Virus record (IMG/VR): IMGVR_UViG_3300030098_004888
Location: 1 to 56,666 of that record
Strand: one strand, 5' to 3'
Source of the DNA: a virus
DNA: 56,666 nucleotides
Below are positions 356 through 56,666 of the stretch, in pieces; positions within the stretch are counted from its first letter, which is position 1; each line of letters begins with the position of its first letter. The notes under the pieces are model-generated. The model did no database searches. It had not been told where the DNA came from and saw only the letters and a program-made list of their open reading frames with translations. The translations under genes and the position numbers were made by a program.

Positions 356-373
356 TAACTAAAAACTAAAACT

Positions 374-529
374 ATGGGTAACTTAATAAAAGAAAAAGGA
401 TTAACACATAAAGAAGTTGTGGAGATTGTAAGATTGTGGTATACCAATGGAATGTATAAAGATATTTTACAAGATGAAGATGGAAAAGATTTAGAAGAAA
501 TATGTGAGGATATTTTATATAACAACTAA
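374..529 (+). CDS. Small early protein, unknown (51 aa)
   Basis: Starts MGNLIKEKGL and ends DILYNN. The start is fixed by a perfect copy of the 15-base leader at 362-376 ending in the ATG. Length and acidic charge match its neighbours. Part of the allele-specific cassette 94-529. No recognised domain. Confidence 0.75.
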   Translation: MGNLIKEKGLTHKEVVEIVRLWYTNGMYKDILQDEDGKDLEEICEDILYNN

Positions 530-542
530 AACTAAAACTATG
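528..542 (+). repeat. Early-gene leader repeat (AAAACTAAAACTATG)
   Basis: Type example of the repeated translation leader. Perfect 15-base copies also end in the ATGs at 374, 54973, 55309 and 55599. Shorter matches (10-13 bases) end in the starts at 2604, 3255, 4857, 51884, 52911, 55463, 55787, 55980, 56240 and 56600. There is no Shine-Dalgarno sequence; the A-rich leader is the likely initiation signal, as usual in Bacteroidota. The same 15-mer occurs at 9595-9609, where the transcribed strand is its complement. Confidence 0.85.
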
Positions 543-2567: not shown

Positions 2568-2603
2568 TATCCACTATAATTTAATTAACTAAAACTTAAA
2601 ACT

Positions 2604-3116
2604 ATGAAAACTATCAAGATTAAAGGGAAGGACTATGTTGAAGTGAATGAGAGAATTAAACACTTCAGAAAAAACTACCCAAACTTTTCACTATCATCAC
2701 GAATCGTTGAAATTGATGCAGAAACTTGCATTATTAAAGCAGAGATTAGAAACGAATCAGGTGATGTTGTAGCTACTGGTCATGCTCACGAAGAGAAGTC
2801 AGCAGGATATATTAACAAAACTTCTTTTGTTGAAAACTGCGAAACATCTGCTTGGGGTAGAGCATTGGGCAACTTTGGTATTGGTATTGATACTTCTATT
2901 GCTTCAGCAGATGAGGTTGATATTGCTATTAAAAAGCAAAACACTAAACCATCAGCAAATGGTGTAGATAAAAAAACAAAGCTAACAAAGAAACAATTTG
3001 ATGGCATGATGCAGTTTATAATTGATGGCAAGAAAGCACAAGTAATGAGTGCTATGAAGAAATATGATATGAGTAGTGAGCAATCTAAAGCAATAAACGA
3101 AGCATTACTTAAATGA
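2604..3116 (+). CDS. ERF/Sak-like single-strand annealing family protein
   Basis: 170 residues. The core FVENCETSAWGRALG followed by IDTSIASADEV is the hallmark of a large phage family grouped with ERF/Sak-type annealing proteins (from memory). The N-terminal part (NERIKHFRKNYP) and GHAHEEKSAGYINKTSFVEN also fit. The C-terminus is a lysine-rich linker with a small helical end. It is two genes upstream of a RecE-like exonuclease, the classic exonuclease plus annealase pair for recombination during replication. Cytoplasmic, DNA-bound. Confidence 0.7.
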   Translation: MKTIKIKGKDYVEVNERIKHFRKNYPNFSLSSRIVEIDAETCIIKAEIRNESGDVVATGHAHEEKSAGYINKTSFVENCETSAWGRALGNFGIGIDTSIASADEVDIAIKKQNTKPSANGVDKKTKLTKKQFDGMMQFIIDGKKAQVMSAMKKYDMSSEQSKAINEALLK

Positions 3117-3250
3117 AAAAACTAAAACTAAACTTCACAACATACAAAGGATTGGCTATGGGTTTTGTATGGGTAGATAATCACTTTGAAAAAGGAATTT
3201 GTTTTATACTTCCATTTTTCAGTATTGATTTTATGAAGAAGAAAAGATAA
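3113..3250 (+). CDS. Small protein between annealase and exonuclease (45 aa)
   Basis: ATG overlaps the TGA of the annealase (ATGA), indicating translational coupling. Starts MKKLKLNFTTYKGLAMGF, then the hydrophobic stretch GICFILPFFSIDF, ends KKKR. Possibly membrane-associated. The next leader begins right at its stop. Unknown function. Confidence 0.65.
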   Translation: MKKLKLNFTTYKGLAMGFVWVDNHFEKGICFILPFFSIDFMKKKR

Positions 3251-3254
3251 AACT

Positions 3255-4016
3255 ATGGACTTAACAAAATTTATTAACAAGTTTGCTTGTGATGAAGCAT
3301 ACTACGGAGACCACGACTTTATAACTAACAGTCAAATGGGTCACTTAAAAAAGTCTCCACTAGCTTATCAAAAGTATAAAAAACATGGAATGCCTGATAC
3401 TAATGCTCTTATATTTGGTAGAGCATTTCACTGGGCAATACTAGAACCTGAAAAGTTTGAAGAGAAAACACACATATTTACTGGCAAGGTTAGGAGAGGT
3501 AAAGCTTGGGATGAGTTTAAAGAAGAGTATGATAAGGATGCTAATTGCATATTACTACAAAATGAATACGATGATTTAAAGTGTATGCAAGATGTTATAA
3601 TGAGTAATGCAGAATGTCAAGAACTATTATACGGTGGTAAAAACGAAGCAGTAAGTTGTTGGGAGGATGAAGATTCAGGGGTTTTTTGTAAAGGGAAAGC
3701 CGACAAAGTAAAAAAAGATTGTGTTATTGATTTGAAGACAACATCAAGTGGCGAGTTACACTCTTTTAAGGGGTCTGCTTATAAGTATGGTTATAACAGA
3801 CAGAGTGCGTTTTATATGGATGGTTTCAATAAAAACAAGTTTATATTTATTGTTATTGAAAAATCTTCTCCCTACAACTTATATATATATGATTGTAGTG
3901 ACCAGTTTGTAGAAAGTGGCAGAGAAGAATATAAATATCTACTGGATGTTTACAGAGAATATTTTATAGATGAAATTAAAGTACCTAGTCAATATTATTA
4001 CAAAGGATTATTATAA
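3255..4016 (+). CDS. RecE-like PD-(D/E)XK exonuclease
   Basis: 253 residues, the size of the C-terminal nuclease domain of RecE-type exonucleases. Motifs: N-terminal ITNSQMGHLKKSPLAY; GRAFHWAILEPEKF (about 55-68, conserved H59); KGKADKV (D150); VIDLKTT (D159, K161); and YNRQSAFYMDGF in the helix after the active site. Together these make a metal-dependent nuclease that would degrade one DNA strand to give 3' tails for the annealase upstream. The 253-residue length excludes the full E. coli RecE form. Confidence 0.85.
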   Translation: MDLTKFINKFACDEAYYGDHDFITNSQMGHLKKSPLAYQKYKKHGMPDTNALIFGRAFHWAILEPEKFEEKTHIFTGKVRRGKAWDEFKEEYDKDANCILLQNEYDDLKCMQDVIMSNAECQELLYGGKNEAVSCWEDEDSGVFCKGKADKVKKDCVIDLKTTSSGELHSFKGSAYKYGYNRQSAFYMDGFNKNKFIFIVIEKSSPYNLYIYDCSDQFVESGREEYKYLLDVYREYFIDEIKVPSQYYYKGLL

Positions 4017-4481: not shown

Positions 4482-4754
4482 ATGAGTGAAACAAAAACAA
4501 CAACAGAAAAAATCTATGTAGGTTCAGGTAAGAGAGTTAAAGATTTTGATATGGTAAATATCACAATCAATCTTACTAAATTATCTCAAGAAGGTAAAGA
4601 GTTCTTCTTTGAGTATGATGGTAACAAGTATGCTAAACTAAATGTAGTTGGTAAAAAAGAAACTGATGAGTATGGTAAAACACACTATGTTGCAGTGGAT
4701 ACTTTTAAGCCTGAAGCTAAAGATGAAAAAAGTGGTAACGACCTACCATTCTAA
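4482..4754 (+). CDS. SSB-like protein with acidic LPF tail
   Basis: 90 residues. Beta-rich body (VKDFDMVNITINLTKL, KYAKLNVVGKKETDEYGK) compatible with a reduced OB fold, ending SGNDLPF, which closely mimics the DDIPF tail by which bacterial SSBs recruit partner proteins. Its position between the DnaA-like protein and DnaB supports ssDNA binding during replication. Shorter than classical SSB (~110+ residue core), so the assignment rests on the tail and context. Followed by a strong terminator. Confidence 0.6.
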   Translation: MSETKTTTEKIYVGSGKRVKDFDMVNITINLTKLSQEGKEFFFEYDGNKYAKLNVVGKKETDEYGKTHYVAVDTFKPEAKDEKSGNDLPF

Positions 4755-4816
4755 ATTTTAAAAAATAAGTCACAATCTTTTTCATATGCGTAAAAAGTCA
4801 ATGTTAATAATAACTT

Positions 4817-4848
4817 GAGGGGTTGGTGACTTGCCCCTCTTTTTTTTT
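4817..4848 (+). terminator. Rho-independent terminator after the recombination operon
   Basis: Stem GAGGGG (4817-4822) with CCCCTC (4834-4839), 11-base loop, followed by a T run at 4840-4848. Ends the 2604-4754 operon; the next gene begins nine bases later, so read-through or another promoter must serve the helicase operon. Confidence 0.85.
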
Positions 4849-4856
4849 CTAAAACT

Positions 4857-4994
4857 ATGGTAATTAATAACTTTGGTCTATATATTACATACTTTTGTAT
4901 GCTTTTAACTGCACCCATAACAATTTTGTTTATGCTACCTATATTAATACCTTCTTTTATACTTAATGTTTATAAAAAAATATACAGAAAATGA
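4857..4994 (+). CDS. Small membrane protein (45 aa)
   Basis: Preceded by leader CTAAAACTATG. Starts MVINNFGLYITYF, with a hydrophobic stretch of about 30 residues (one or two membrane passes) and a basic end KKIYRK, giving inside-positive topology. Stop overlaps the next start (ATGA). Role unknown; its place before the helicase genes could suggest membrane attachment or host interference. Confidence 0.6.
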   Translation: MVINNFGLYITYFCMLLTAPITILFMLPILIPSFILNVYKKIYRK

Positions 4995-8626: not shown

Positions 8627-8994
8627 TTTATCTTATCTAAAAGAATAGCAGAGCCTATTATTGAGCCTGCACCTATGAAAAACCACAACCCCTTTTTATC
8701 ATACCACTTTGGTTTTATTTCTTTATTTAGTTTCATATACAAATCAACTCTATCATTCAATAGGGATAACTCCTGGTTTGTATAAAATAAAAGTGTTGAG
8801 TCTAGTCTTGCTTGTTGCTTGTATAGGTCTACTTGTTTGTCTAATAAAGAAATGGTGTGACCTTGAATAGAATCATTCTGCTCGTACCAAGTCATAATAG
8901 AATCTAGCTTAACAACCTCTTCATCTGTTAATGTAGTTTGTGCAAGGGAGTGGCTTGACAACATAATTAATATAGCGAGTATTCGCTTAATCAT
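8623..8994 (-). CDS. Exported coiled-coil protein with C-terminal membrane anchor (spanin-like?)
   Basis: 123 residues. Signal peptide (MIKRILAILIMLSSHSLAQ), a long helical charged segment (~25-95), then a hydrophobic helix WFFIGAGSIIGSAILL near the end. Topology would put the coiled coil in the periplasm; with the membrane-anchored coiled-coil protein two genes upstream it could form an envelope-spanning lysis pair. Last gene of the - strand late operon; the ATG overlaps the previous stop by four bases. No sequence motif proves lysis. Confidence 0.6.
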   Translation of the reverse strand: MIKRILAILIMLSSHSLAQTTLTDEEVVKLDSIMTWYEQNDSIQGHTISLLDKQVDLYKQQARLDSTLLFYTNQELSLLNDRVDLYMKLNKEIKPKWYDKKGLWFFIGAGSIIGSAILLDKIN

Positions 8995-9245
8995 TTTCTT
9001 TTGGAACCTTTTAGTCTTGACTTTTCTTTCTTGCCCCTGTTTTTAGAAGCTGTTATTATGGTTACAGTTTTAGAGTAAACCCCTTTTGGGTGATGAACAT
9101 CCATACCATCTCCCTTTTTAACCAATCCACCTTTCATGGCTTTTCTTCTTGATTTGTTTCTAGCAACTCTATCCTTCTTAGATTTCTTTGAGCTTTGAAA
9201 CTTGCCATACTCTTTTTTATAATTTCTTTTTACTGCTTTAGCCAT
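8991..9245 (-). CDS. Small basic HNH-like phage protein
   Basis: 84 residues, very basic. The segments RVARNKSRRKAMKGGLVKKG and DGMDVHHPKG match a widespread short phage family with an HNH-like DVHH motif followed by SKNRGKK (from memory; role unknown). The second histidine/asparagine set of a full HNH nuclease is not clear, so catalysis is uncertain. Overlaps both neighbours by 4-8 bases. Confidence 0.65.
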   Translation of the reverse strand: MAKAVKRNYKKEYGKFQSSKKSKKDRVARNKSRRKAMKGGLVKKGDGMDVHHPKGVYSKTVTIITASKNRGKKEKSRLKGSKRK

Positions 9246-9543
9246 TTAATCTTTTCTTTAATGATTCTTTTGCTTTGCTAACTGATTTCTTTTTAACAAC
9301 TGGTTTCTTTTTCTTTGCCTCCTCTATTTCAGATAAGCCTTTTGTTATTTCTTCTGTCACTTCTTTTTTGTCTTCCTTAACTTCTTTCTTTTCTTCACGA
9401 ACAGAATCTAAGTCCTTCTTGTTTTGTTTAAGGTCGTTTTTAAGCTGTTTCTCACGCTTTCTGCTACTCTTTGATGAAAGACCTACAATCAGGGCAAGAA
9501 CCCCAAAAACACCTAATATTATTTTGGCAAGCTTTTTTAGCAT
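9238..9543 (-). CDS. Membrane-anchored coiled-coil protein (inner-membrane spanin-like?)
   Basis: 101 residues from the ATG at 9543: one N-terminal hydrophobic helix (IILGVFGVLALIVGL) then a ~65-residue charged coiled coil (KNDLKQNKKDLDSVREEKKE) and a Lys-rich tail, the Rz-like layout. The longer form from 9582 is rejected because it would run through the terminator hairpin at 9561-9593. A TATATTTG box ends five bases before the ATG, so its message would be nearly leaderless. Confidence 0.65.
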   Translation of the reverse strand: MLKKLAKIILGVFGVLALIVGLSSKSSRKREKQLKNDLKQNKKDLDSVREEKKEVKEDKKEVTEEITKGLSEIEEAKKKKPVVKKKSVSKAKESLKKRLNG

Positions 9544-9547
9544 AATA

Positions 9548-9555
9548 CAAATATA
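9548..9555 (-). promoter_or_regulatory. Promoter -7 box TATATTTG abutting the gene at 9543
   Basis: Matches TAnnTTTG on the - strand immediately after the terminator at 9557-9593 and only four bases before the ATG. It would restart transcription for the last three late genes after the terminator, with an almost leaderless mRNA. Confidence 0.55.
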
Positions 9556-9556
9556 C

Positions 9557-9628
9557 AAAAAACCCAGCAAAAGCCTGGGCATGATGCTGGGTTCAAAACT
9601 AAAACTATGTGCACTAATGTGCGAAGTA
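9557..9628 (-). ncRNA. Candidate anti-leader small RNA
   Basis: Read on the - strand, this ~70-nt interval has a 5' hairpin GCAC-ATTA-GTGC, then the unstructured segment CATAGTTTTAGTTTTG, then a terminator: AACCCAGCA (9593-9585), 15-base loop, TGCTGGGTT (9569-9561) and a T run to 9557. A TACCTTTG box sits just upstream (9639-9632). The segment is the exact complement of AAAACTAAAACTATG (9595-9609), which is the leader plus start codon of early genes at 374, 540, 54973, 55309 and 55599. Predicted role: base-pair with early mRNAs and block initiation late in infection. Seen: sequence, hairpins, complementarity. Inferred: transcription and function. Confidence 0.55.
9561..9593 (-). terminator. 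Rho-independent terminator of the candidate small RNA
   Basis: Nine-base perfect inverted repeat AACCCAGCA/TGCTGGGTT followed on the - strand by six T residues counting the stem end. On the + strand the hairpin is followed by CAAAACT, not a T run, so it is directional to the - strand. Confidence 0.75.
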
Positions 9629-9631
9629 TTA

Positions 9632-9639
9632 CAAAGGTA
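9632..9639 (-). promoter_or_regulatory. Promoter -7 box TACCTTTG for the candidate small RNA
   Basis: Fits TAnnTTTG on the - strand in the 135-base gap of an otherwise closely packed operon. No clear -33 TTG 17-23 bases upstream, so it may be weak, or the RNA may be processed from read-through of the late operon. The same octamer occurs at 53861-53868. Confidence 0.5.
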
Positions 9640-9678
9640 GTAAATATTTATACACCTTTAATTAATATTTATTCACAG

Positions 9679-9903
9679 TTATTTCCTGTTTGCAAACTTC
9701 TCAAGTCCTGCAATACCAAAGCAACCTAATACAACCATTACAAACGAATTATATATAGCTTCATTGATAACCAGGTCTTTACCAATCCAACCTGTAATTA
9801 CATCAGCTAGCATCACTATCACCATAATCAAAAAAGCAAGAAATCCTATTATGCTTTTCTCATTATACTTGTTATCATCTTTAAATATTTCTTTCCAGCT
9901 CAT
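9679..9903 (-). CDS. Holin-like small membrane protein
   Basis: 74 residues from ATG 9903 (MSWKEIFKDD), which begins seven bases after the upstream gene ends; an in-frame ATG at 9957 would add a Lys/Asn-rich tail overlapping that gene. Two hydrophobic helices (IIGFLAFLIMVIVMLADVIT and YNSFVMVVLGCFGIAGL), short connecting segment, basic end. Size, topology and position between virion genes and the spanin-like genes suggest a holin. No motif proves it. Confidence 0.6.
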   Translation of the reverse strand: MSWKEIFKDDNKYNEKSIIGFLAFLIMVIVMLADVITGWIGKDLVINEAIYNSFVMVVLGCFGIAGLEKFANRK

Positions 9904-9910
9904 ATTGTTT

Positions 9911-12900
9911 TTATTTTTTTTGTTTTTGTTCTTTTGTTTCTTGTTCTTTTCTGTCATCTTTTTTAGGTTTAAAAAACCTATTGTAAGTTCGTTCTATTAC
10001 TGTTGTTGGAAGAGGTAGGGGTCGTATCATATCAAAGAAATTTCCCATAAATTCATCCGTAGTATATTCATCTAGATTTAAAATTGCTTTTATAAATTCT
10101 GCTCCTCCTTTTACTGATTTTGCTAAGGTGCCTGTAACTGGGTCTATTTCAAAATCATATTGTTGTCCAAAAAATTGTTGGTAAAAATAAGTAATCAAAT
10201 CACCTACTATTGGGTAAAAAGCATAAGCACCAGTAGCTGTTGTTAATAAATGATTACCTATAACACTATCCCAAAGTTCATCTCTTTCATCTTCAGGGGT
10301 AAATGCATATTTTATAAGGCTTCCTGCCACTGTAAAAAGTTGAGGCAATACAAACCAAAACATTACCATTCCTTTTAGTGCTTGTCTTTGGCTACCCTTA
10401 CCAGTTTTAAAATTGTTGCTGTGGACATTAAAATTTCTAGCTAAAGCTAATGGGGAATTTAACAGTGTTGTAAAAAAACTATACGGACCTTTTTGCATTG
10501 CACCTAAAAATTCTGAGGCACCTGATTGCTGAGTCATTTCCCCTACAAACTCAACCTTTTTTAAAGCTTTTTCTGGACTAAGCTTTTCAACATTAATTAA
10601 ATAATTGTAATAAGGAATACCACCAAACATAAACCCTCCCATGTCTCCATATTTTGTTAAAAAGAATGCGTTGTTTCTCCATTTGCTCAGATTCCTTTTT
10701 AACCCTGTTAGGTCTTTTTCTAATTCAAGATAAAGCTCTTCGTTTATATTAAAGTTTGCAAACCTATCCTGAAGAATAGGACTCCTAGAAATTAAATCTT
10801 TTAACTGAGAAACAGTTTTTTTAGGGGTTGCTAACATTGTGCCAAAGTTTTTCAACCATTTACCAGCACCCATATATGAAGCATATCCTGCTGCTGATGT
10901 TAACTGCTTAATACCAGGATGCCAGTTAAATGCCAAAACAGAAGTTAAAAAATATCGCCTTGCACTCATTAATCCTGCTATATATCCATCTAGTGGTTCA
11001 GGTGTATTAAAAATAGTTTGAAAATGAAATGTTAATAAATTTATCATTTCAGCACCATCGGTTTTTTTCCCCTCAACTACTTTCTCACCTTTAAGTCCTT
11101 TTTTTCTTATTATTGTGTTAAATATTTTATTCCTTGTTTCTGGATATCTTTTTATTAATGCATTTTTAACCTTGTCAGAAAGTATAGTATTTTGCAGATA
11201 AAAACCTGTTGGCCCATATGCTATAAACCGAGACATATCATTTAAATAACTAACAGAATTTAGTATAAAGTCATCAGGTGATAATACTTTTTTAGCTTGA
11301 GGAACTCTGTCTATAAGACTTTTACTAAATACAGTTTTCAATACATCTGACGTTGGGTTTAAAAAATTAAAAGGAATATCTTCAGGTTTTTTATTTTGTT
11401 CTTTTTCTTCGCCAGTAAGAGTTACTTTACCAGAATATCCTTCTTGAAAAGTAGCAGGAATTTTAAACATTTCCATGCTTGTGTTATTTATTTCCTCTCT
11501 AAAAGATGGAAAAAACTCTACTATCATTCTATCTACAAACTCTTTTTGACCTGGTGTTAATATTTCATTAATAATCCTATCCCCTTCTTTTGTTAGTATT
11601 GCTTCTCCTTCTTCGTTTCTTTCTTTAATTATCCCATCTCTTATCAGGTATAGGTCGTTTTGTTTATTTTTAGTAAAAGCATACAAGCTCATTAATTGAG
11701 CAGAATTAAAATCAGGCTTACCTCCTGCATATTCAATTACAAATCTTTTGTTTGATAATTTATCTCTTTTGTTGTCTATTGTTTCTTTAGATATTTTTCT
11801 AATTAAATCTGTACCTCGTTTTTTTCTAGCAATAAAAATGTTTCTTCCTTCTTGTATTTTTTCCCTAACTAATGTAACCAAGTTTCCTTCAAATGTTTTA
11901 TTTGCAGGGTCTGTGTCTAAAAATTCAAGAAGAGTGTATAGATTTTCATTTTGACGTTCATATACACCCCTAAGGCCAGGAACAATATTAGATAGTTTAA
12001 ATCCACCAGTTTTTCTTTTACCCTTTTTTTCTATTCCTCCTTCTATGTCTCTAAGCATAAGGTCTATATCCTTTTTCCATTCTTTTCTTTGTTCTTTTTC
12101 TGATTCCTTTCTTTGCTCTTTTGCTGTTTTAATAAACCTATTTAAAAAATCTAATCTTTCTTTAACATATTCTAATGGGGTTTCAGGTAGTGTTATATCA
12201 TGAAAAGATAAAGCCATTAATCTATCCATTAAATTTTCAGGTATTTCATGTAAGCCTCTAACCTCTTCTAGTATATTTAAAGCCTCTTGTTTTATTTTCT
12301 CTGTATCTTTTTCTTTAATAGCTCTTGTAACATCTTTAAGAAATCCAATACCATCTACGGACAGTGATTTGTTTTGCCCTACAAAAGCTCCTGCTTGATT
12401 TTTTATATACCCCTTTGGATTTGATATTTTTTTTATTTCATTAACCAACTCTACTTTTTCAGCATGATTAACATCATCAAGTAATTTGTTTACTTTATTT
12501 ACAATATTTTTTATGTCCTTAGGGGATTTGCTTGTTTTTATTAGACTTAAAAGCCTATTAACATACTTTGAGTTTATTGTTCGTTCTGGGAATAAATTTA
12601 AAGTTTCTTTTACAAAATTTAAAACCTCTTCTCTACCTTCTTTTTTTGACAGGTCACTTACTTTTTGTAATTCTTTTAACTTTCTTTTAAGCTCAACTCT
12701 TTCAGTTACTTTTATAGTTATTCTTTTGTCTCTTGCTTTAAGACCCAAATCTTTTAAAGATGGTGGTTTTGGTTTTTTATATTGTATACCTAAAAATTTT
12801 CGGCTTTGAGTAATAGATGGCTGGGTAATAATTTTATCATATACTTTTTGTTTAGATATTGTTTCCCAATCAGAAATTTGTTTTTTTGTCCATATTTTAT

Positions 12901-45708: not shown

Positions 45709-45716
45709 TATATTTG
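45709..45716 (+). promoter_or_regulatory. -7 box TATATTTG five bases before the 45722 ATG
   Basis: TAnnTTTG match; the ATG follows at 45722, so the transcript would have almost no leader. Confidence 0.55.
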
Positions 45717-45721
45717 TAGTT

Positions 45722-47677
45722 ATGAAAGCAATGAAAAAATATCAAGATGGTGGCAGCCCAAAAAGAAGAACAGTTAAGTTTACGAAAGAAACTTTAGAAA
45801 CTGGTAAAAAAGGGAAACCAACCAAACAAAGAGTAACTAAAACTGTTACCAAACAAACCAAAAAAGGTACAAAAACTAAAACTAAAGAATTTACCTTAGA
45901 TAAAGGAGCTAGGAGAGATAAAATAAAAAAAGCATTAAGTGTTTTAGGTATGGCAGCAGGAATTGCACCTTTAGCTGTTACTCCAGCTTTTGCTCCATTG
46001 TCTGCTGGTGCAATAGCAGCAGGTAGAGCAGGAATAAAAGGAAAAGGAAAAGGTAAAGTAAGAACAGAAAAAGGTAAGACTATAAAATTTGAGCCAGCTC
46101 CAACCATGATGGAACAAGCAAAAGATGTTTTGTTCCCAAGTATGCAAGAAGGGGGTATGGTAGAGGAAGCAGAAACTAAAGGCCAAGCTAGAAGAAGAAT
46201 TAGGAGAGAAGATAGAGATTTTAAAAGAGCTACAAAAAGAGCTAACAGAGAACAAGAACAAGTTATGTCTCCAAGTATGGATGCTGAAATAGAAGCTCAA
46301 GACCCAGTAACACCAACAAGAGATAATACACCAAGTAATTTTCCTAAAACATATACTGCTTTTAAACAAATGTGGAGGTCTTCTGATGCTGGAAGACAAG
46401 GGGTTCCTGCTCCATCTAGAAGTGAGTTTAGGAAAATGAAAACAAAAAACCAAATAAAAGCAATAGAAGAAGCTAAGGAGGCACCAAAGCCAACTAGAAA
46501 AGATAGAGTTCTTGATAGAAAAATGAAAAGAGCACTTAAAGAAGGTGAAAAAATGATGGAAGCAAGTCCTATTATAGAGGCTGACGAACCAGATGCTGAT
46601 GATTTTTCTAGAAAACCTATTGAATTACCTAAAAAAGATTTAAGTAAAATAGAATCTCCTGCTTTATTAGATGACGAAACTAAAAATATTCCTGTTCCTG
46701 GAAAAGAAGAAGAGGAATATAAAGCATTATTAGAGCAAGCTATAAAAGACGGTGAATTAGGAATGCTAGATGCAGATGACCAAAAAGCAGCTAGGAAAAT
46801 GGGTCTTGCTTCACGAAGAGATATTAGAAAAGCTAACAAGGGAGAATCGTATTTGCCAGAAAAAAAAGAAACACCTACAGAACTATCTGCTGTAGATAAA
46901 AAAGAATTAGAGGAAATTATTCCAGATAGTCCTTTTGTAAAAAGTGACCAAGATGCTGTAGATGAAAAAGAAAATGAAATAGTTGTAGAAACTCCTGAAA
47001 CTGATAAAGCACCTATTAGTACAATTACTACAAGTGAGGATAAAAAACCTAAAAAAAGAATTTTTCAAAACTTCCTTCAAGAGTTTAAAGATGCTAGAAA
47101 AAGAGCAATGAAAACATCGGAAGAGCAAGGCTTAAGAACTAAAAGAGATATTAGAAAGTTTGGAAGATTTTCTAGACGAGGGCAAGAATATGATGAAGGA
47201 AAAGATATAAATATAGATAAAACAGGAATGAGGGGAAGGAAAGCTATAAGGCTAGAAGGAGCTAGAGTAAGACAACAAGACAAAACAGCTAGACAAGAAA
47301 AGTTTAATCAACCAGGAGAAGGTAGACCAAAAGTATTTAAAAATATATTTAAAGGTATGGTTGGTGCTGCTTTTCCTATAATGTCAGCTATTGTTGATAG
47401 GTCTAGAGCTCAAGAAGGAATCTACAAACCAGGAACAGAAATATATGATGCTGAAGGAAATGTTGTAGGAGGTAAGCTTAAAAATTTATTATTTTCTGGT
47501 CCAAATCCTTTATTTAATTTTTTACCATCTAGCTTACAAAAACAAGGTAGTGCTGGTAATGTTGAATTTGATAGTCAAGAATTTAGTGCATGGTATGAAA
47601 CTAATAAAGATGTTATGGGGTTAGAAGCAATGGACCCTAAAGAAGTTTTGGCTAGATATTTATTATTTAAACAATAA
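45722..47677 (+). CDS. Lysine-rich virion-type protein (651 aa)
   Basis: Starts MKAMKKYQDGGSPKRRTVKF; very Lys/Arg-rich N-terminal region, then a hydrophobic/alanine segment with IAPLAVTPAFAPLSAGAIAA (about 80-100) that could insert in a membrane, long charged linkers with repeated GLASRRDIRKANKG / GLRTKRDIRKFGRF motifs, and a folded C-terminal ~130 residues. Resembles large basic marine-phage proteins of unknown role. Possibly an internal virion protein injected with DNA. Confidence 0.6.
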   Translation: MKAMKKYQDGGSPKRRTVKFTKETLETGKKGKPTKQRVTKTVTKQTKKGTKTKTKEFTLDKGARRDKIKKALSVLGMAAGIAPLAVTPAFAPLSAGAIAAGRAGIKGKGKGKVRTEKGKTIKFEPAPTMMEQAKDVLFPSMQEGGMVEEAETKGQARRRIRREDRDFKRATKRANREQEQVMSPSMDAEIEAQDPVTPTRDNTPSNFPKTYTAFKQMWRSSDAGRQGVPAPSRSEFRKMKTKNQIKAIEEAKEAPKPTRKDRVLDRKMKRALKEGEKMMEASPIIEADEPDADDFSRKPIELPKKDLSKIESPALLDDETKNIPVPGKEEEEYKALLEQAIKDGELGMLDADDQKAARKMGLASRRDIRKANKGESYLPEKKETPTELSAVDKKELEEIIPDSPFVKSDQDAVDEKENEIVVETPETDKAPISTITTSEDKKPKKRIFQNFLQEFKDARKRAMKTSEEQGLRTKRDIRKFGRFSRRGQEYDEGKDINIDKTGMRGRKAIRLEGARVRQQDKTARQEKFNQPGEGRPKVFKNIFKGMVGAAFPIMSAIVDRSRAQEGIYKPGTEIYDAEGNVVGGKLKNLLFSGPNPLFNFLPSSLQKQGSAGNVEFDSQEFSAWYETNKDVMGLEAMDPKEVLARYLLFKQ

Positions 47678-51851: not shown

Positions 51852-51883
51852 AAATATATATTGTTTAACTTAAATTTAAAACT

Positions 51884-52039
51884 ATGAGCAGATTACAAAA
51901 AAGTTTATTTAACATCTTATGCCCAAGAGCAATACAACTATTTCAAATGTTGCATGAATTTGAATATATGAGATTATCTTCAAGTGGTAGAGAAACGCTT
52001 GACGAACTAGCAGAATTATTAACTAAACCAAATAGCTAA
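51884..52039 (+). CDS. Small early protein (51 aa)
   Basis: Starts MSRLQKSLFNILCPRAIQLF; helical with a ETLDELAELLTKP end. Leader TTAAAACTATG. No recognised family. Confidence 0.65.
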   Translation: MSRLQKSLFNILCPRAIQLFQMLHEFEYMRLSSSGRETLDELAELLTKPNS

Positions 52040-52902: not shown

Positions 52903-52910
52903 TTAAAACT

Positions 52911-53138
52911 ATGAAGAAAATTTATCTACCATTACTCAAAGAACAAAAAGAACGTAAAGTTTTATTCTCATCTACTTTATCAAAGTATAAGTTTGAAACT
53001 GAAGAAGATAATAGGCACGAACTAGATGAGGAATTGTTCTTTAAAGATTGTGCAGAGTTCAGAAGAAGAAAAGAACTATTAAAAGATGACTCATTCTTTG
53101 ATGCATCTCACTTTAAATATAATATAATAAGGAGCTAA
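52911..53138 (+). CDS. Small early protein (75 aa)
   Basis: Starts MKKIYLPLLKEQKERKVLFS; acidic helical C-terminus. Leader TTAAAACTATG. Part of the early operon 51578-53569. Confidence 0.7.
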   Translation: MKKIYLPLLKEQKERKVLFSSTLSKYKFETEEDNRHELDEELFFKDCAEFRRRKELLKDDSFFDASHFKYNIIRS

Positions 53139-53570: not shown

Positions 53571-53710
53571 GAGGTTAAAACCTTTACAAAGTAAGCGAAA
53601 TATAAGGGAGTTAATTATTTAAATAATTAAACACTTTGTAAGGGGGTTAATAGAGTGCCGAGAAAAAGACAACAAGGCAAATTGTCTACTGAATTTAACC
53701 ACCTCTTTTT
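53571..53710 (+). ncRNA. Multi-helix structured RNA with pseudoknot and terminator
   Basis: Helices: CCTTTACAAAGT (53581-53592) with ACTTTGTAAGGG (53633-53644), 12 bp; GTTAATTATTTAAATAATTAAAC hairpin inside it; TGCC (53656-53659) with GGCA (53676-53679); and AGACAA (53667-53672) with TTGTCT (53682-53687), the last two interleaved as an H-type pseudoknot. GGTTAAA (53573) and GGTTAA (53645) both match TTTAACC (53694-53700), and GAGGT (53571) matches ACCTC before a T run (53706-). Could be a stand-alone RNA or a cis-attenuator for the operon starting at 53917. Family not recognised. Confidence 0.55.
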
Positions 53711-53916
53711 TAAAACAAAAAAAAGCATAATATGGGCTTGATACATTACGTTCCTTTCTGTGAGTTTGCTATTTCACTTCTTTGTGTAGCTGTTATGACG
53801 AACGAACGATTTTTTTTGAGGGGGGTTAAATAAACTATGTGTTATTTAATCCTAACAAGGCAAAGGTACACAAAATATTTTAATAAGTCAAGTGTTTAAC
53901 TAAAAAAACTAAAATT
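53711..53916. other. Non-coding region with a - strand promoter-like box and hairpin
   Basis: No gene. On the - strand TTG (53889-53891), 20 bases, then TACCTTTG (53868-53861), followed by a hairpin GGATTAAATAA/TTATTTAACCC with loop CACATAGT (the same anti-start word CACATAGT as in the 9557 RNA). A T run on the - strand near 53718-53725 could end a ~135-nt transcript. On the + strand a T run at 53811-53818 follows a GAACGAACGA sequence. Confidence 0.45.
53861..53868 (-). promoter_or_regulatory. Promoter -7 box TACCTTTG with -33 TTG, leftward
   Basis: TTG at 53891-53889 is 20 bases upstream of TACCTTTG, matching the Bacteroidota spacing. It points away from the + strand genes, into a non-coding region, so it would make an RNA without a coding gene. 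Confidence 0.5.
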
Positions 53917-54400: not shown

Positions 54401-54865
54401 ATGGAAACAAAAACTTATGTATGGGAAACTTATTATGATGTGTATGCTTATATTCAAAATGAAATAGATTTTTTCAAAAGAGATAAACAAGAATTTCTTG
54501 TGAGTATATTAGGAGATGAAGAAAGAGAAACTGAAAGTGTAACAGATAAGGAAATAGAAGAACACTTTAACAATGACTATTATATAGGGGAATATCATTG
54601 GGAATATTTTATAGAGGATTTAGAGGAAGAGTTTAGACAACATATTGGTAAAACAATATATGTAGAGGGAAGAAATATAGGATGGAGAAATAGAAGTGGG
54701 CATAAAGAGTTTGAACTAAAGAGTGGAGAAGATATATTTAGAGAGATAGCCCCTGAATGTGATTTAACATATTACATAACAAAAGAAAAAGAGGGGGAGT
54801 ATGAAGTGAGAATAAGCCACCACGATAGCCCAATGGGAGAGTATTATAACATTAAAATTAAATAA
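54401..54865 (+). CDS. Early acidic protein (154 aa)
   Basis: Starts METKTYVWETYYDVYAYIQN. Middle is acidic and aromatic (YIGEYHWEYFIEDLEEEFRQ), ends EVRISHHDSPMGEYYNIKIK. Last gene of the 53917 operon. No family recognised. Confidence 0.7.
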   Translation: METKTYVWETYYDVYAYIQNEIDFFKRDKQEFLVSILGDEERETESVTDKEIEEHFNNDYYIGEYHWEYFIEDLEEEFRQHIGKTIYVEGRNIGWRNRSGHKEFELKSGEDIFREIAPECDLTYYITKEKEGEYEVRISHHDSPMGEYYNIKIK

Positions 54866-54920
54866 AATGAAATTGTTGATAACTTTTTTGGGCTATTGAT
54901 AATTATATATGTAATATTAT

Positions 54921-54955: not shown

Positions 54956-54972
54956 AACTAAAAACTAAAACT

Positions 54973-55209
54973 ATGGAAGCAAATGAATTTAAAAGTGCAA
55001 TGGCTTTTGACAGATTAGAAACAAACGATTCTTATGATGTCTATTGGCTACATTCAGAAGATAATAATAGGATAGAACCAGATGACTTATATCATTGTGA
55101 GTATAACTTTGAAGATGCTTGTAAAGAGATAGTTCAGAATGGAGAACCTTATGTTAACTACCACTTTGATGATGAAACTATTGAAGAGTGGTTAGAGGAA
55201 GAAAACTAA
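54973..55209 (+). CDS. Small acidic early protein (78 aa)
   Basis: Starts MEANEFKSAMAFDRLETNDS; acidic, ends EEWLEEEN. Perfect 15-base leader at 54961-54975. Function unknown. Confidence 0.75.
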   Translation: MEANEFKSAMAFDRLETNDSYDVYWLHSEDNNRIEPDDLYHCEYNFEDACKEIVQNGEPYVNYHFDDETIEEWLEEEN

Positions 55210-55308
55210 CGATAGTCAGGTTGAGGTTAGGCTAAACCAACTTTGTAAAACTATACTATTTGGCGTGTATAGTTCCCTGCTTTTTATTAATTATTAAAAA
55301 CTAAAACT
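55210..55308. other. Intergenic region with two hairpins
   Basis: AACTATAC (55249-55256) pairs with GTATAGTT (55267-55274), followed by CCCTGCTTTTT; upstream GTTGAGGTT...AACCAAC can form a bulged stem. No gene. May be a partial terminator or an attenuator. The word TTCCCTGC is shared with the 44-bp repeats at 51344; ACACGCCAAA/TTTGGCGTGT is shared in inverted orientation with about 50587. Confidence 0.45.
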
Positions 55309-55458
55309 ATGAAAGAACTAAAATTAGATGAACAAGAATTAGATTATCTAACAATGGTGGTTGAACAAAATTTAGATGATGAACCAGAAGAATATGGAGA
55401 AAACCACAAACAAATGTTAGAGGACTTATATAGTAAACTAATAATCTTAAATAAATAA
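55309..55458 (+). CDS. Small acidic early protein (49 aa)
   Basis: Starts MKELKLDEQELDYLTMVVEQ; perfect 15-base leader at 55297-55311. Helical. Unknown. Confidence 0.7.
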   Translation: MKELKLDEQELDYLTMVVEQNLDDEPEEYGENHKQMLEDLYSKLIILNK

Positions 55459-55462
55459 AACT

Positions 55463-55594
55463 ATGGAAACAATCAAAGAGCTAAAAGAATTAGTATCTCT
55501 TTTTAAACACAGAAAACTATTTACCAACGATAGTATAATAATGGTTGGAGATTTAGAAAAATTAGAAGAATTAATAAATAAAATTAAAAACTAA
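55463..55594 (+). CDS. Small early protein (43 aa)
   Basis: Starts METIKELKELVSLFKHRKLF; ends LEELINKIKN, coiled-coil-like. Leader ATAAAACTATGG. Unknown. Confidence 0.7.
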   Translation: METIKELKELVSLFKHRKLFTNDSIIMVGDLEKLEELINKIKN

Positions 55595-55598
55595 AACT

Positions 55599-55760
55599 AT
55601 GGAAACAAAAAACAACAAACAAGAACATTCTTTATTTATAGAAGGAAGAATAGTAAAAGTAAAATGTACAAAAGAAGAATTAACAAAGTATATGCAAAAG
55701 ATAAAAGACAAATGTAAAGAATTAGAATCTTTACAAAGCTTTAAAGGAGAATTAATTTAA
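55599..55760 (+). CDS. Small early protein (53 aa)
   Basis: Starts METKNNKQEHSLFIEGRIVK; Lys-rich helical second half. Perfect 15-base leader at 55587-55601. Unknown. Confidence 0.7.
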   Translation: METKNNKQEHSLFIEGRIVKVKCTKEELTKYMQKIKDKCKELESLQSFKGELI

Positions 55761-55786
55761 CCTAATAATCTTAAATAAATAAAACT

Positions 55787-55975
55787 ATGGAAAAGAAAAT
55801 AACTTATGATGACACAAGAGATATAGCTATCAGATGTGTTGACAAACTAATAGAATTAGATATTTTATCCGAAGAAGAACACAACTTTGAATTACAAGAT
55901 TTAATACAAGATGAAATAAATAATGTATTAGGATTAGATATAGATGATAACTTTGAAATAACTATTAAAAAATAA
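55787..55975 (+). CDS. Small acidic early protein (62 aa)
   Basis: Starts MEKKITYDDTRDIAIRCVDK; acidic with LQDLIQDEINNVLGLDIDDN. Leader ATAAAACTATGG. Unknown. Confidence 0.75.
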   Translation: MEKKITYDDTRDIAIRCVDKLIELDILSEEEHNFELQDLIQDEINNVLGLDIDDNFEITIKK

Positions 55976-55979
55976 AACT

Positions 55980-56222
55980 ATGAGAATTAAAATAGAAGAT
56001 TACTTTGGTAATGAAATAATAGAATTAAATGTTAAAAAATTACATAACAACAAATATGAGGAAAACATTTTTCATAGAGAAGGGATTGATATAAAAGAAA
56101 CAGATGAATATAATATAGCAGATGTAGATGAGGATGAGAATGGTGAATATGTAAGAGTACAATTAACCACTCGTGGCTTTTCATCCCCTCTATCAACAGC
56201 AATATATAAACTAAATAAATAA
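55980..56222 (+). CDS. Small acidic early protein (80 aa)
   Basis: Starts MRIKIEDYFGNEIIELNVKK; beta-like with acidic turn DVDEDENGEYVRVQL. Leader ATAAAACTATG. Unknown. Confidence 0.75.
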   Translation: MRIKIEDYFGNEIIELNVKKLHNNKYEENIFHREGIDIKETDEYNIADVDEDENGEYVRVQLTTRGFSSPLSTAIYKLNK

Positions 56223-56239
56223 ACTTAAAAAATAAAACT

Positions 56240-56443
56240 ATGGACTTAAAATCTTTATCAATGATTGCCCAAATGGGTAATGTAATGTTTGCTGACAACA
56301 GAAAAGACAGAACATCGTGGAAAGAACGCTTTGTATTTATGGCTAGTGGATTAGAAAAGCCACACGATTGGGACTTATTATCTTTAGAAGAAAAAGAAAG
56401 TAGGTTAAATAAAGCACTGGAACAAATAACTAAAACTAAATAA
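56240..56443 (+). CDS. Small early protein (67 aa), complete copy of the gene at 1-93
   Basis: Starts MDLKSLSMIAQMGNVMFADN; ends ITKTK. Leader ATAAAACTATGG. Its last 93 bases are identical to 1-93. Function unknown. Confidence 0.8.
   Translation: MDLKSLSMIAQMGNVMFADNRKDRTSWKERFVFMASGLEKPHDWDLLSLEEKESRLNKALEQITKTK
56351..56443 (+). repeat. Terminal overlap, copy 2 (identical to 1-93)
   Basis: Perfect 93-base match to 1-93. It lies inside the 56240-56443 gene, so the two contig ends describe the same locus seen twice. Downstream the two copies carry different small genes. Confidence 0.9.
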
Positions 56444-56445
56444 CT

Positions 56446-56595
56446 ATGGAAAGAAAAGAATTAATAGACAAAATTTTAAGTTTAGCAGGAGATGAATTTG
56501 AAACTAAAGAAGATTATATAAAATTAGCAAAAGAAACAACTGATGAGTTAGTTAAAAGATTAATTTACATTAACCAACAATTATTAAACAACTAA
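56446..56595 (+). CDS. Small early protein (49 aa), alternative allele
   Basis: Starts MERKELIDKILSLAGDEFET; helical, ends LLNN. Occupies the place held by the two genes 95-355 and 374-529 at the other end. Leader AACTAAATAACTATGG. Unknown function. Confidence 0.7.
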   Translation: MERKELIDKILSLAGDEFETKEDYIKLAKETTDELVKRLIYINQQLLNN

Positions 56596-56666
56596 AACTA
56601 TGAAAGAAAAAACATTATCAGAACTTCAAAAACTAAAAGATAGGTTAGCTTGGTATGATTTATTTG
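56590..56666 (+). repeat. Second terminal overlap (identical to 530-606)
   Basis: 77-base perfect match to 530-606, including the leader and start of the 540 gene. Together with 56351-56443 it brackets the allelic difference. Confidence 0.85.
56600..56666 (+). CDS. N-terminal part of the 540-707 gene (cut by contig end)
   Basis: Starts MKEKTLSELQKLKDRL with the AACTAAAACTATG leader; same sequence as 540-606. Truncated only by the window. Confidence 0.8.
   Translation, partial: MKEKTLSELQKLKDRLAWYDLF

Follow-up and report, generated by a model that had tools for sequence, protein, structure and literature searches.

The stretch of DNA analysed here (the window) comprises the 56,666 bases of a virus record that we read as a phage of marine Bacteroidota. 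Its terminase shared mostly 55-70% identity with many environmental viral contigs, and 38-43% with Flavobacterium phage elemo and a spring-water podovirus. Early genes are located on the + strand, from ~50.7 kb to the end and then from 1 to 8.6 kb, and the late operon on the - strand, where it descends from 38 to 8.6 kb; strand and gene content were the basis for assigning both classes. Positions 1-91 are repeated at 56350-56440 and positions 540-606 at 56600-56666, with different small genes between the repeats, and the two ends of the contig probably join up, with a strain variant. A gap in the early region (53571-53711, +) holds a candidate structured RNA of ~140 nt, closed by AGAGGTTAAA/TTTAACCACCTCT and a T run, with a fold z of -3.6 and no match in the Rfam scan.

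Near the lysis end of the late operon, a gene of 92 aa (9679..9957, -), without PHROG match but a probable holin by its place and transmembrane look, is followed by an Rz-like spanin gene (9238..9543, -; PHROG 1026/739) and a gene of 84 aa (8991..9245, -). The 135-nt gap between the 92-aa gene and the spanin gene is the widest of the late operon. According to the promoter scan and the sequence, a separate TATATTTG box (9555-9548, -) precedes the ATG of the spanin gene by 4 nt. Boxes of this kind were seen 4-7 nt ahead of several phage start codons (9555-9541, -, and 45709-45724, +, in the window; L152 7474 and L145 14912 elsewhere), which suggests leaderless or very short leaders in several phage genes.

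On its - strand, the gap contains an element (9639-9556) composed of a promoter box, a hairpin, a seed and a terminator. The -7 box TACCTTTG (9632..9639) is that of a Bacteroidota (sigmaABfr-type) promoter and has the TAnnTTTG form found elsewhere in the genome; the promoter scan revealed no TTG at the -33 distance and no clear -33 box. The 5' hairpin GCAC-ATTA-GTGC (9611..9622) is followed by an unpaired 16-nt seed, CATAGTTTTAGTTTTG (9594..9609), which is the complement of an early leader plus AUG, and by an intrinsic terminator (9556..9593) with the stem AACCCAGCA/TGCTGGGTT (9593-9561) and a T run (TTTTG) that reaches 9557. Promoter and terminator together would delimit an sRNA of about 70-75 nt (9554..9628). 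Folding of 9628-9554 yielded -23.6 kcal/mol, with a z-score of -3.8 against shuffles and the seed unpaired. Sequence and fold agree with the anatomy and the widest late gap that the original prediction had described, and the element looks like an RNA gene, with transcription inferred from its promoter and terminator. Opposite the early operon, at 53868-53780 (-), another TACCTTTG box with TTGAC upstream runs into AACACATAGTTTATTTAACCCCCC, and is perhaps a second, weaker seed-like RNA.

Leader plus start were listed for a hand-picked set of genes, and matches to the seed complement were counted as contiguous runs anchored on the ATG. Runs of at least 10 nt (10-15 nt) occurred at 15 early starts, or 14 without start 56600, which is the terminal-repeat copy of gene 540. 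All are on the + strand. The full 15 nt were found at genes 374 (AAAACTAAAACTATG, 362..376), 540 (528..542), 54973 (54961..54975), 55309 (55297..55311) and 55599 (55587..55601), 13 nt at start 56600 (56590..56602) and 11 nt at gene 4857 (4849..4859). The remaining runs measured 10 nt and precede genes 2604 (2597..2606), 3255 (3248..3257), 51884 (51877..51886), 52911 (52904..52913), 55463 (55456..55465), 55787 (55780..55789), 55980 (55973..55982) and 56240 (56233..56242). The best match of any late or middle gene was 5 nt (early versus rest, Fisher about 1e-7). In this gene set, the five 15-nt complements, the roughly 14 early genes matching over 10 or more bases and the lack of such matches before late genes were all recovered. 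AAAACTAAAACTATG was expected 0.005 times in the late half and observed once, and the 12-mer ACTAAAACTATG has seven occurrences in the genome, namely six early leaders and the element. Duplex energies of the own seed at starts in the window averaged about -10 kcal/mol; this AU-rich pairing is weak, and the energies distinguished starts from internal ATGs only weakly.

Start contexts in Bacteroidota are Kozak-like and A-rich (PMC7366714; PMC6847099), with A frequent at -3, -6 and -11 to -15 (PMC7366714). The early leaders resemble one another because they share this common A-rich context, with A at -3 and -6. The context is a translation signal and in that respect differs from the element, an RNA; it does not explain why an antisense copy lies between a promoter and a terminator.

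The closest known counterpart is FopS, a group of 14 paralogous sRNAs of B. thetaiotaomicron that combine an unpaired 5' seed with a terminator, described in a 2025 study of RbpB (PMC11697453). FopS pairs around the start codons of SusC-type mRNAs and blocks their translation, its seed consensus is printed as GTGTTTTTCATAGTATTAGATTTAAGGTTAACAAA, and RbpB binds these sRNAs around the conserved block CAUAGUUUUAGUUUUG (PMC11697453). The same study already mentions the FopS sequence for one Caudovirales phage (PMC11697453). Like FopS, the element has a -7 box of the sigmaABfr type, a 5' part left unpaired ahead of an intrinsic terminator (by folding, in the window and in relatives) and complementarity to the start-codon regions of several mRNAs, around which it is predicted to pair. 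The -7 box TACCTTTG also occurs in several FopS genes, the -33 TTG being absent at the element, and the FopS seed CATAGTATTAGATTT and the window seed CATAGTTTTAGTTTT are identical at 13 of 15 positions. Unlike FopS, with its many paralogs per genome, the window element is present in a single copy and carries an extra 5' hairpin; furthermore, it resides in marine Bacteroidota phages beside lysis genes, and is predicted to act on early genes of the phage itself. GibS of B. thetaiotaomicron likewise pairs at translation initiation regions through an unpaired 5' seed (R1 in that RNA), but is 145 nt long, with two seeds, a PM2 promoter and host metabolic targets (PMC7366714). The c4 RNA and DicF are, like the element, phage-derived RNAs that repress by base-pairing, but c4 serves the control of phage immunity, and the target of DicF is host ftsZ (review PMC12197685). 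In the literature searched, we found no example of a single RNA that fits the start signal of an entire early regulon.

The search for the same arrangement in related phages, another proposed check, revealed the promoter-seed-terminator element in more than 10 other marine Bacteroidota phage contigs, mostly adjoining a lysis gene. Because of this recurrence, we do not regard the seed match as chance. In G023, G013 and G011 the element lies directly behind an endolysin-like gene and is followed by a homologue of the 84-aa gene 8991-9245; there, TATATTTG or TATATTTA precedes CATAATGTTTAGTTTTG or CATAATATTTAGTTTTG, and a G/C-rich hairpin with a T run comes last. Searching with the endolysin-like protein of these relatives gave more lineages with other seeds (CATAGTTTTAGTTTTAAG, CATGGTTTTTAGTTTG, CATGATTTTAGTTTTG and CATAGTTTTAGTTCG). 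Of these, CATAGTTTTAGTTTTAAG, the seed of G026, G027 and G028, is identical to that of the window over 15 nt. A pattern scan also detected the element in otherwise different phages; counts from the second viral pattern scan and from the scan of genome contigs are to be read as at least the number found. Among these phages is G032 (IMGVR_UViG_3300020045_004605; 63.7 kb), unrelated to the window phage, with four FopS-like copies (L320:6180, L320:2710, L321:14139 and L321:10361), one of them directly behind a tRNA gene.

Although the seeds have diverged, CAT, the complement of AUG, was kept in all aligned copies. G026 and G027 carry a hairpin ACAC-ATTC-GTGT at the same pre-seed position as in the window, and comparison by eye of the stems GCAC/GTGC (window) and ACAC/GTGT (G026) shows a two-sided change at one pair. 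In G026 and G013 the ATG on the opposite strand runs at once into a stop, so that no gene begins with it in these phages; the small plus-strand gene 9607-9729 was rejected on this ground. Other searches gave no relatives: the exact seed plus terminator pattern was absent from the viral contigs, blastn against named phages returned no match, and the 2110-aa protein led to none. The 92-aa late protein gave many loci, and the element was not adjacent among the matches listed. Matches of a 53-nt probe in Olleya, Cellulophaga and Lak phages were discarded, as they came without a clear sRNA gene. Three bacterial chromosomes (L463, L490 and L572, two of them with titles that name Bacteroidales or a related group) have TTTTCATAGTTTTAGTTTT or TTTCATAGTTTTAGTTTT and a terminator behind a tRNA gene that looks like one for arginine, possibly a tRNA-trailer sRNA with the same seed type.

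A sequence-only model (R1) was built from 15 elements of other phages, leaving out the window and FopS. It gave five matches in the window, namely the element (E 0.0044), the antisense of starts 2604, 54973 and 55309, and a weak one at 54848-54872. On 601 kb of phage sequence, 46 matches were obtained: 15 sRNA elements (a number read from the listed sequences), 21 antisense to start codons and 10 others. In other words, 21 of the 31 non-element matches were antisense to start codons, versus about 2% expected. Moreover, this phage-only model matched nine of nine FopS loci in a Bacteroides genome (E 0.005-0.04), and in none of 2000 shuffles was the similarity to the FopS consensus as high as for 24 elements (phage plus two chromosomal). 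For the window element alone, comparison with the R1' seed GTGTTTTTCATAGTATTAGATTTAAGG gave p 0.058.

The curated covariance model of FopS (RF04319, BTncRNA_FopS; cut-off 56 bits) scored 64-79 bits on genuine Bacteroides FopS genes, and about 16-30 bits (E down to 9e-5), below the cut-off, on the element in many relatives. It had no match at gathering in the whole window and none at E<=10 in 9500-9720, and Rfam scans of the window and the phage loci placed no family at gathering on the element. The matches of RF04319 within the window all lay off the element; the best (4775-4849, +; 23.6 bits) falls in the 3' gap after gene 4482-4754 and contains TTTTTCATATGCG and a GAGGGG/CCCCTC terminator. 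Because the scores in relatives stayed below the cut-off and the window copy was missed, we call the element FopS-like and not FopS. Judging from sequence comparison, it probably works like FopS and is probably related to it.

The early bias recurred in other phages. Pairing of at least 10 nt with the phage's own seed, through the AUG, was found at 21-44% of early starts in G026, G027, G028, G025 and G031, compared to 0-3% of late starts and 1-6% of internal ATGs. The bias was small in G032 (12% versus 9%), and few early matches were found in G013 and G011, contigs without most of the early region. ACT precedes the ATG at early starts and at none of the late starts in the window, G026, G027, G028 and G025. 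Furthermore, the ratio of ACT to ATT before early ATGs was 64:56 with a CATAGT seed versus 7:36 with a CATAAT seed (p 3e-5, uncorrected for relatedness). This association is suggestive of covariation between seed and leader, without being proof of it. The matrices gave no sign of the covariation that had been proposed as a check: a strict anchored matrix showed no own-seed preference, and in a swap matrix the generalist seeds of G029 and G031, with G-U-permissive CATGG, beat the own seeds everywhere.

We favour, as somewhat better than an even bet, the reading that the element encodes a FopS-like trans-acting sRNA by which the phage represses translation of its early genes. Host RNA polymerase would start at the TACCTTTG box, with a TSS at about 9626 (-), and the terminator at 9593-9556 would end transcription; the resulting RNA would measure about 70-75 nt, with its end shielded by the 5' hairpin. 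The open 16-nt seed would pair with the A-rich leader plus AUG common to most early genes. Bacteroidota ribosomes would use this leader in place of a Shine-Dalgarno sequence, and pairing would occlude initiation because they depend on it. Synthesis of early proteins would then drop across the early operons, probably mainly after late copy build-up, possibly with help from a host RbpB-like protein. The proposed pairing of an sRNA seed with early leaders and AUG is strongly supported by the recurrence of the element, the models run in both directions, the early bias in five phages and the FopS analogue. The original prediction also had the RNA act when late transcription starts, which we do not uphold, as the common TAnnTTTG -7 box gives no timing; the position beside the lysis genes fits late expression or accumulation.

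The rival that we take most seriously, although we consider it unlikely, is a real sRNA acting mainly on host mRNAs. As a FopS mimic it would repress, for example, SusC/TonB receptors (superinfection exclusion), and the early leaders would match through the same strong start context. FopS represses SusC-like transporters (PMC11697453), the seed resembles that of FopS, and the elements of relatives gave sub-threshold RF04319 matches, all of which speak for host targets. However, exact 15-mers of any kind numbered 0-2 per genome in the 15 bacterial genomes inspected, whereas the phage itself is dense in the 15-nt match, with five exact early leaders in 57 kb, and its bias for early over late genes recurs in other phages.

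Much less probable is a decoy RNA, whose CAUAGUUUUAGUUUUG block would titrate a host RbpB-like RRM protein, with leader complementarity being secondary. RbpB does bind FopS around this block (PMC11697453), and the block is conserved across phages, but a decoy explains neither why it ends exactly in CAT in every copy nor why it matches early and not late genes. Slightly less probable again is that there is no RNA gene. A terminator of the late operon would then lie next to an early-leader copy that arose by chance or is a relic, or a 40-aa gene would begin here (9607-9729). The plus strand does show TAAAACTATG and after it 40 codons without a stop, but this reading frame extends across the promoter and into the end of gene 9679-9957, the low expectation for the 15-mer in the late half (0.005) argues against chance, and other phages have the same element in the same place. 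Least probable of all is that the element belongs to the spanin gene, as its attenuator or 5' leader, with conditional read-through of the terminator and a seed without a role in trans. Although that gene lies directly downstream, a separate -7 box precedes it past the terminator, and what follows the element in relatives is a different gene or a convergent one.

Returning to the FopS-like repressor of early translation, we tentatively extend this reading to a family, at somewhat less than an even chance. Marine Bacteroidota phages may carry, on the lysis side, FopS-like sRNAs that switch off the translation of a whole early regulon in trans, through a start signal (ACT-AUG and neighbours) common to the early genes and avoided by the late ones, with seed and signal changing together. 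If this is true, a lytic phage turns off its early proteins with one short RNA, rather than with a repressor or a new polymerase. The aim of this RNA would be the start signal common to the early genes, which suits Bacteroidota, with their starts lacking Shine-Dalgarno sequences, and control of the FopS type would reach from gut Bacteroides to marine phages. The element offers an RNA open to direct testing in phages with little-explored gene control.
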